From contig NZ_VKDE01000022.1 in assembly GCF_007097485.1 (NCBI RefSeq), forward strand, positions 62,001-126,000: DNA of 64,000 nucleotides. The letters are read 5' to 3'. Within the stretch, counting starts at the first letter, position 1. Every line of letters starts with the position of its first letter. Shown here piece after piece: positions 539 to 53,499 of the stretch. This DNA is from Carboxylicivirga sp. M1479. Its GTDB lineage: Bacteria; Bacteroidota; Bacteroidia; Bacteroidales; Marinilabiliaceae. The position numbers were made by a program, and so were the translations under genes. The notes under the pieces are model-generated. The model saw only the letters and a program-made list of their open reading frames with translations, did no database searches and had not been told where the DNA came from.

Positions 539-779
539 CCCCTTGGGGCGAGACATGATCCCCAAGGGGCGCGGATTTGGAACCATGGGGATAAAGATTT
601 GCCCCAACAAAAGAACCTTTCGCCCCATGGGGCGAAAAGAAATCCCCAAGGGGATGACAATGCGCCCCATGGGGATGACTGTAAAAAACTAGGGGCGAAA
701 GTTGTGCCCCTAGGGGATAATCGTGCGCCCCTAGGGGATTAAGGCTTGCCCCAGGGGGATAAGGACCATCCCCTTGGGG
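539..779. repeat. 21-bp-phased array of 12 CCCCWWGGGG palindromes
   Basis: A 10-bp core, consensus CCCC-WW-GGGG, begins at 539, 560, 581, 602, 623, 644, 665, 686, 707, 728, 749 and 770, which is an exact 21-bp period with no indel across 12 units. Eight units are perfect; 581 and 686 keep only the right arm, 602 only the left arm, and 749 reads CCCCAGGGGG. The central two bases vary (TT, AA, AT, TA). The 11-bp spacers differ in sequence, but most start with CG or AT and many end with AT, CG or TG. The period is seven codons and two B-DNA turns, so both strands stay open as fake heptapeptide ORFs. The array starts 14 bp beyond the stop codon of the small gene at 794-1114. No cas gene is visible, and a 10-bp repeat is too short for CRISPR. 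Confidence 0.95.
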
Positions 780-52734: not shown

Positions 52735-53499
52735 TTAATTATTTACATAATCCATAACTAAAATAAAGGTTGTAATTGATGAAAGAAGTAGCGCATATGG
52801 GAAAGTATCCATTCCCCACCTTCTTCGCTTTAAAGGCTCTACATACAATACATCATTTGAGCGCAAATAGTAATATGGCGATGAGAATATCCTATCAGAA
52901 GTAAGGTCAATAATTTGCTTAGTTGTAACGTTATTTTCTTCACGCACAATCATCACATTTTGTCTGTTTCCATACTCGTGTATATCGCCAGCCATACCTA
53001 AAGCCTGGAAAATATTTATGTGATCGCTTGAGTAGTAATAACGCCCTGGCCGATTGACATAACCAACCAAGGTAATACTCTTATTAACGAAGTTTATTTT
53101 CACAGATGGTTGATAAAGGTAATCCTCCAACTTTTCTTCCATATAATCAGCAGCTCCTTCAATCGTAAGTTCCGCTATTCTAATTTTACCAATGACTGGC
53201 AGGTTGACATTACCAAACTCATCAACACGGTACGATATAATTGAAAGCCCCTCGGGGGTGGTAGTACTGTATAATCCCTGTTGCTGTTGCTCCAGAAAAT
53301 TCGATCCTTCTCTATCGGTGCTCATCACCTCGATGTAAACCTCATCAAATGGCTGAATTGTTTGCTGTGTTTTTACAACATCATGAGCTTCGTCCATATA
53401 TTTATCATCTACAGTATCCTGTAAGTAGATAATTTCTTTATGAGGAACACACCCATTTAATGTAAAAAGGGTAAGAATCAGGAGATATATCGAACGCAT
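52735..53499 (-). CDS. Wza-type outer-membrane polysaccharide export lipoprotein
   Basis: The 254-residue protein starts with a lipoprotein signal (LTLFTLNGCVPHKEI). Residues 45-130 form the Poly_export domain (PFDEVYIEVMSTDREGSNF, VDEFGNVNLPVIGKIRIAELTIEGAADYMEEKLEDYL) and residues 135-215 the SLBB domain (SITLVGYVNRPGRYYYSSDHINIFQALGMAGDI). A C-terminal transmembrane helix (FPYALLLSSITTFILVMDYV) probably spans the outer membrane or anchors the complex. It is the first gene of the export unit, followed by Wzc after one base. Confidence 0.93.
   Translation of the reverse strand: MRSIYLLILTLFTLNGCVPHKEIIYLQDTVDDKYMDEAHDVVKTQQTIQPFDEVYIEVMSTDREGSNFLEQQQQGLYSTTTPEGLSIISYRVDEFGNVNLPVIGKIRIAELTIEGAADYMEEKLEDYLYQPSVKINFVNKSITLVGYVNRPGRYYYSSDHINIFQALGMAGDIHEYGNRQNVMIVREENNVTTKQIIDLTSDRIFSSPYYYLRSNDVLYVEPLKRRRWGMDTFPYALLLSSITTFILVMDYVNN

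Follow-up and report, generated by a model that had tools for sequence, protein, structure and literature searches.

Anatomy of the palindrome array and its neighbouring gene

The stretch of DNA analysed here (the window) spans 64,000 nucleotides of the genome of Carboxylicivirga sp. M1479, which is assembled as 5.4 Mb in 130 contigs. Positions 539 to 779 of the window are occupied by a 12-unit array with a 21-bp period that consists of nine intact CCCCNNGGGG palindromes, starting at 539, 560, 623, 644, 665, 707, 728, 749, and 770 in one 21-bp phase, and three one-armed units, AACCATGGGG (581 to 590), CCCCAACAAA (602 to 611), and AAACTAGGGG (686 to 695). A half-unit, GGGGG (523 to 527), lies in phase at the left edge of the array. 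On the minus strand the unit at 686 to 695 reads, by eye, as a GC hairpin followed by a T run and is terminator-like. A sequence-only reading of the window had described twelve CCCCWWGGGG palindromes at exactly 21 bp from 539 to 770 without slip, with units that lost one arm keeping the phase. Every unit start does fall on one phase, and the units at 581, 602, and 686 are all in register; however, the unbroken register holds twelve units of which nine are intact, and the centre is not WW in every unit (that at 749 is CCCCAGGGGG). The palindrome CCCCNNGGGG occurs 10 times in the window (nine times in the array and once at 53248), compared with a mean of 0.20 in dinucleotide shuffles of the window. 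Similarly, seven pairs of palindromes 21 bp apart with at most two mismatches were found, while 0.00 were expected from dinucleotide shuffles. Tandem Repeats Finder reports just two overlapping fragments of the array (689 to 738 and 704 to 764), likely due to the divergence of the spacers.

The array is adjacent to a gene on the minus strand (794 to 1114), referred to here as X, that encodes a protein of 106 amino acids; its stop codon, TAA, lies at 794 to 796 and its 3' end faces the array. Helices are predicted at residues 6 to 22, 24 to 29, 35 to 91, and 96 to 104. An AlphaFold2 model built from seven sequences is confident and helical (pLDDT 89.1, pTM 0.54), with two short helices, one helix of 57 residues, and a C-terminal helix, and the C terminus is basic. 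Most X homologues are about 103 to 140 amino acids long, and five residues are invariant among 12 aligned proteins (F12, L41, Y77, S81, and R105). No family scored above the cut-off in Pfam (seven X proteins) or NCBIfam (five X proteins), no PADLOC model matched (four X proteins), and a Foldseek search of the model against PDB and BFVD gave no match with E below 1. The PHROGs search (five X proteins) gave a single weak match, of the homologue L039 only, to a family of unknown function (E 0.0026), and a profile of X sequences matched only MafG weakly (E 0.1 and 0.19). Thus, domain, profile, and fold searches found no DNA-binding domain of a known type in X, with a remote fold match being conceivable.

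Two further repeats were observed in this part of the chromosome. Within the window, an intergenic segment of about 213 bp that contains CCACAGATTGC is present twice (1240 to 1450 and 2582 to 2794; 87% identical). To the left of the window (C46, about 60.2 to 60.9 kb; L008 3235 to 3937), minus-strand frames repeat a block of about 41 residues, running from RIINFCASASLCCFCLNVSP to TYIFKNSINAETQRHGG, which corresponds by eye to a tandem repeat of about 123 bp.

Arrays in the genome of strain M1479 and in other genomes

Four arrays in this genome, that of the window and three others termed C1, C2, and C37, hold 32 of the 38 genomic CCCCNNGGGG sites, and a reversed control motif occurs 6 times genome-wide compared with 38 for CCCCNNGGGG. 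All four arrays are intergenic as judged by inspection of open frames, and three of them stand without X. Unit for unit, the C1 and C2 arrays share 84 to 88% identity with the window array or with one another, and this includes the one-armed units: those at 581 and 602 are found in both copies, while the one at 686 is the same in C2 and C37 and reads AAACAAGGGG in C1. That C1 and C2 have one-armed units where the window array has them indicates that these units are inherited rather than the product of fresh decay. The homology of C1 and C2 to the window array starts at 524 and stops at or near the array edges; the flanks are unrelated and no flanking genes are common. The C1 match includes 27 identical bases that reach window position 796, the end of the X stop codon, which hints that the arrays without X may derive from an X-linked array. 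The C37 array is more distant (74% identity to the window array over 100 bases) and lies between genes that presumably encode UvrD-like and beta-lactamase-like proteins. At the corresponding position in genome G008 (L093, about 935 to 1500) there is a short gene, presumably for a protein resembling the four-helix-bundle or 23S-insert proteins, that is flanked by CACTTTTAG-type repeats. Three of the four own-genome loci were examined for an empty counterpart; their flanks have diverged, and none of the three gave a clean empty site.

Exact palindrome pairs are present in 4 of 40 relatives, with the M1479 genome counted; a sample of 393 genomes of the order has them in 2 (M1479 and G120). When the GTDB collection (described as covering 84,980 species) was scanned with the query CCCCWWGGGG-N11-CCCCWWGGGG, 50 stretches were returned, of which 25 keep the register over at least five unit positions (counted by hand, with gaps of up to two units allowed). 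Nineteen of these 25 come from Bacteroidota, including Draconibacterium, Marinilabiliaceae JC017, termite-gut Tannerella metagenome-assembled genomes (MAGs), and Carboxylicivirga. The other six are from Candidatus Edwardsbacteria (L039), Verrucomicrobia or Spartobacteria (L059, L075, L079, and L084), and Treponema (L044); the Treponema array sits inside an open frame of 574 codons and is probably coding. The remaining 25 stretches span two to four units. Some of them end at contig or stretch ends or belong to Carboxylicivirga (L041 with L083, and L048), and the rest, many in GC-rich DNA, look like chance matches. One viral contig matched the palindrome-pair query with two units, and the plasmid and phage collections gave no match to the window's array or to X. 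Arrays in the 21-bp register are thus present in relatives, and the idea passed this test of the sequence-only reading, which absent or unphased arrays would have contradicted.

Some of these arrays, like C1, C2, and C37, are found apart from X. Draconibacterium aestuarii has three CCCC arrays with no X nearby, and four Tannerella MAGs that yielded no X also have arrays. In two Tannerella MAGs a gene of 217 amino acids (L055 3448 to 4122 and L063 1691 to 2341), which matches no Pfam or NCBIfam family, has its 5' end beside a CCCCATGGGG array; the surroundings of a further array (L056) are homologous to those of L063, with this gene seemingly missing. The 217-amino-acid gene, found beside two arrays, has no detectable homology to X and is possibly a second family that is linked to 21-bp arrays in the opposite order. 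Two other genomes, G006 and G010, contain 54 and 43 CCCCNNGGGG sites compared with 4 and 2 for the reversed control. Among the matches listed, these sites are mostly isolated and outside 21-bp arrays, and they are perhaps terminators or a dispersed form.

Linkage of X to arrays with changing arms

When the genes next to 24 arrays were compared, X homologues were found beside five further arrays, each with its 3' end toward the array: L037 (71% identity, 38 bp from the array), L074 (62%, 176 bp), L053 (44%, 124 bp), L058 (42%, 130 bp), and L039 (30%, 32 bp), the last from another phylum. L084, from a Spartobacteria MAG, was picked up in addition when every frame of the scan loci was searched with a profile. 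The known hosts of X are Bacteroidales, one Candidatus Edwardsbacteria MAG, and two Verrucomicrobiota MAGs (the second being L141, from the genome of L059). The profile found X in 4 of 393 genomes of the order, in 1 of 395 genomes of the phylum (M1479 itself), and in 15 of 30 chosen genomes. Within the genus, 5 of the 13 genomes searched have one or two X genes each (G001, G006, G007, G008, and G009). A viral locus found with the profile (L125), whose frame may encode a phage portal protein, was regarded as a chance match.

These searches yielded 30 distinct X genes, where L141 and L149, one gene with two X domains, are counted once and L135, L144, and L151 stand for genes that had first been recorded as L121, L123, and L124. 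Arrays were called by a periodic-segment score of at least 10 that also exceeded the score of all other periods tested. By this measure, a 21/22-bp array lies 3' of X in 29 of 30 loci, compared with 2 of 29 of the 5' flanks and 2 of 79 control gene ends. At a threshold of 8 the counts are 29 of 30, 4 of 29, and 3 of 79, and at a threshold of 15 they are 25 of 30, 0 of 29, and 1 of 79. Seven of the 30 genes were first found through their own arrays; without these seeds the array is present 3' of X in 22 of 23 loci, the exception being L140, which has none. A lag statistic gave 29 of 30 downstream and 1 of 29 upstream but was also positive in 7 of 76 controls, and the segment score was used in its place for that reason; an earlier control set, of which 45 of 512 were positive by the lag statistic, itself included array loci and was replaced. 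The linkage of gene and array is therefore shown. The sequence-only reading had suggested that the gene at 794 to 1114 may encode the protein that binds the array, and the part of this suggestion that places the gene with the array is borne out by the 29 of 30 homologues that stand 5' of a 21/22-bp array, while the role of X as the binder is still conjectural.

The linked arrays start 8 to 275 bp past the X stop codon (about 9 bases in the window) and contain about 5 to 19 units, mostly 9 to 17. The period is 21 bp in most, with diverged spacers and no visible slip, while L135 has a period of 22 and L151 one of 21 or 22. A second X gene of strain M1479 (L010), whose product is 54 to 55% identical to X, has no CCCC array and is followed instead by GGC-N6-GCC units on the same 21-bp period. 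In D. aestuarii (L145), X and its array lie between genes presumed to encode an epimerase-like protein and a dTDP-glucose dehydratase-like protein, and a 93% identical copy of the latter follows the array of D. mangrovi (L147). The shared downstream gene suggests that the element can be vertically stable.

Read by eye, the sequence of the arms varies from locus to locus while the period persists. In addition to the CCCC/GGGG arms of the window type, there are TACC/GGTA or ACC/GGT arms (L143, L146, and L122), GGTAC/GTACC (L150), GGTCAG/CTGACC (L134), GTTG/CAAC (L145 and L147), AAGAT/ATCTT (L136 and L152), GCTT/AAGC (L137), TTTTTA/TAAAAA (L153), GGC/GCC (L010), and GTCG/CGAC (L148). Two arm types are mixed in L131, L133, and L138, and CCCC is mixed with TTTT or AAAA in Draconibacterium. 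The distance from arm to arm within a unit also differs between arrays (by eye). Dyad symmetry is significant in 21 of 30 loci, where at most 2 of 60 column permutations reach it, and the other nine failed this control (L128, L130, L133, L135, L138, L140, L144, L146, and L152).

Close relatives of X can have equal arms, as in L136 and L152 (85% identical) and in L145 and L147 (48%), while L119 and L122, which are 75% identical, differ in theirs (CCCC and ACC/GGT). Coevolution of arms and X over all loci was rejected, as X identity and array words gave a Mantel rho of 0.03, which 671 of 2000 permutations equalled or exceeded (28 loci). A single genome carries up to five differing copies. Similar pairs of X-linked arrays number 0 of 19 within genomes compared with 28 of 359 between genomes (7 of 338 without the pairs of array-derived seeds); with the chance of zero being about 0.2 or 0.7, avoidance of equal arms by paralogues in the same genome is suggestive only and was not retained.

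Possible functions and comparison with known systems

An open frame of 116 codons on the minus strand (444 to 794) passes through the window array, with its ATG overlapping the X stop codon (TAATG), and was rejected as a gene because no frame stays open across arrays. None of the reading phases stays open throughout the set of 24 CCCC-type arrays, and 18 of the 42 arrays considered lack an open frame altogether. The sequence-only reading had allowed that such units might merely belong to coding tandem repeats, and the arrays are not generally coding. There is an excess of open frames relative to column-shuffled arrays (49 compared with 34.7 expected, and at least one frame in 24 of 42 arrays compared with 18.2). 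Despite this excess, a heptad-coding repeat was rejected, since no single frame is both open through the arrays and common to relatives. Nor do the arrays carry an RNA-strand signature, as the conserved columns of 26 X arrays show substitutions that are symmetric between the strands (C>T 89 and G>A 86; A>G 84 and T>C 101). Rfam covariance models gave no match at the gathering score in 12 loci with arrays of the CCCC type. In 14 of 30 loci X is separated from its array by a terminator-like hairpin, and the array is therefore probably not part of the 3' untranslated region of X there; a fifteenth (L147) has the hairpin inside its array, and none lies between the X stop and the array in the window.

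Several forms of pairing between units were also considered. The window array folds with z scores of -8.4 and -7.7 on the two strands relative to shuffles. Over 43 arrays, the real order of units folds slightly better than permuted orders (mean z -0.62 and -0.45, with z of -2 or less in 8 and 5 of 43). This effect is small and leans toward self-pairing of the array. A single global hairpin was rejected, as few of 24 arrays have spacers that are more mirror-complementary than permuted spacers (the best, L006, was matched in 29 and 9 of 500 permutations without and with G-U pairs). Local compensatory changes were rejected as well, with double changes within a unit at 5 of 227 deviant positions (two of them compensatory) and between neighbours at 2 of 209 (both compensatory). 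Specific pairing of one unit with another was discarded in turn: most single arrays are within the null, the pooled excess fades with distance, and pooled arm covariation is confounded both by neighbouring units resembling each other and by how the phase was chosen.

The combination of a 21-bp register, drifting spacers, and a noncoding sequence would most simply reflect two turns of B-DNA. With about as much reason for as against, X and the array are proposed to be the two parts of one chromosomal element, with X loading on a platform of duplex DNA that is phased to the helix. In favour of this proposal are the linkage, the different array of the paralogue L010 on an equal 21-bp period, the dyad symmetry in 21 of 30 loci, a register without visible slip in most arrays, the lack of a frame that is open in every array, the strand symmetry of substitutions, the hairpin ahead of the array in 14 of 30 loci, and the confident helical model of X. 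Such an element would comprise gene X followed, behind a terminator of the gene's own in about half of the loci, by inverted-repeat units in the 21-bp register. The array would act as duplex DNA on which X assembles; X would line one face of the helix, with two turns for each unit, probably in dimers or higher oligomers and perhaps together with a partner. Binding of this kind would give a nucleoprotein patch with an organising, silencing, or partition-like outcome. The main difficulty for duplex loading is that the arms change while X stays similar. Specificity may depend on few residues, X may read shape and spacing, or a second protein may read the arms. The arm-to-arm distance, which varies by eye, would not fit a rigid dimer, and the missing DNA-binding domain, the nine loci that fail the dyad control, the arrayless L140, the slight gain in RNA folding from the real order of units, and the arrays without X also count against the model.

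The turnover of arms would be better explained if the array, as RNA or single-stranded DNA, formed a chain of hairpins or interlocked stems whose shape rather than sequence is read by X, since it is the complementarity of the arms and not their sequence that persists between loci. The folding of the window array, far better than that of shuffles, and the small gain from unit order point the same way. Hand counts add that a left arm matches the right arm of the following unit in 7 of 8 (L131) and 7 of 7 (L133) of the cases that could be read and that of its own unit in only 4 of 9 each, although these two arrays are related and the counts are not independent because of a repeated motif common to both. 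However, self-pairing does not explain the register or the strand symmetry: chains of hairpins should allow insertions and deletions in the spacers, yet the register is nearly perfect, and no G-U strand signature is seen. Spacer mirror complementarity mostly no better than permuted, pooled covariation that decays with distance and is confounded, the lack of an Rfam match in the 12 loci, and the terminator ahead of the array in 14 of 30 loci weigh in the same direction, and self-pairing of the array is accordingly a doubtful, if serious, alternative to loading on duplex DNA.

It is rather unlikely that the array belongs to the dispersed, non-autonomous repeats of the REP or MITE kind, with X either spreading it or standing beside it by an accident of insertion. 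The C1 and C2 copies, whose similarity stops at or close to the array borders amid unrelated flanks, have the appearance of such a repeat, as do the three X-less arrays of D. aestuarii, and the C1 match to position 796 looks as if it came from an X-linked array. Most X arrays, however, have arms peculiar to themselves (similar within-genome pairs, 0 of 19), X resembles no transposase or recombinase model, the three loci examined offer no clean empty site, and the 93% identical gene downstream of L145 and L147 speaks for an element that can be vertically stable. It is very improbable that the array lacks a function of its own and is no more than a minisatellite, a multiple terminator, or a repeat coding for heptads. 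Twenty-one base pairs equal seven codons, the window array has its 116-codon frame, open frames exceed expectation, and one-armed units with T runs resemble terminators (L065). Nonetheless, the 18 frameless arrays, the want of a phase open in all 24 CCCC-type arrays, and terminator-like units that in C1 and C2 face away from the upstream gene argue otherwise, as do arms and a register that are kept while spacers diverge and a linkage to X that spans phyla.

Selection in such a pair would act on matching arms and spacing instead of on a fixed motif. X and its array could represent a new class of gene and repeat in bacteria, a proposal as likely to fail as to hold, in which a conserved small coiled-coil protein works with a helically phased self-complementary array whose arms are free to change so long as they match within the array; differing copies would coexist in a genome, and X-less arrays of the same sequence would be further targets. 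A gene family linked to arrays in 29 of 30 loci, with helical spacing fixed and sequence variable, strongly suggests a molecular machine of a hitherto unknown kind. The pair spans phyla, matches nothing in the family libraries searched, and is directly testable with one small protein and one 250-bp DNA. Full-text searches of the open-licence PMC literature brought up no title or abstract opening that describes such a pair.

Several known systems share features with this element. CRISPR arrays have conserved repeats longer than about 20 bp and unique spacers. The window array also has short palindromic repeats with variable spacers of constant length, but its repeats are 10 bp, its spacers are 11 bp, its arms are degenerate, and no PADLOC model matched the four X proteins. 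RAYT proteins are the Y1 transposase partners of REP/BIME elements, whose palindromes bear a GTAG or CGTC tag at one end. REP elements are described as short palindromes in intergenic DNA (PMC3733652). X arrays are likewise intergenic palindromes that are linked to a gene family and have dispersed copies; they differ in that X matches no Y1 transposase model (seven proteins in Pfam and five in NCBIfam), the consensus units have no constant GTAG or CGTC tag by eye, and the arrays are strictly 21 bp in period. Type III toxin-antitoxin systems such as ToxIN combine a small protein gene with a tandem repeat array, often with a terminator between them, and the repeat RNA lies upstream of the toxin. 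X is also a small gene with a tandem array and, in 14 of 30 loci, a terminator between, but the array is 3' of the gene (29 of 30), its 21-bp units are palindromic with no RNA signature, and no nuclease model matched. In Rep/iteron, ParR/parC, and TubR/tubC systems, a small protein gene stands beside tandem sites that are about two helical turns apart on one face of the DNA, and X is similarly a small gene beside a tandem array of about two turns per unit. Searches of the family libraries turned up no relative of X among Rep or Par proteins, and the window's array and X are unmatched among plasmids; unlike the sites of those systems, the sites linked to X are inverted repeats whose sequence changes by locus and of which several differing copies occur in one genome.
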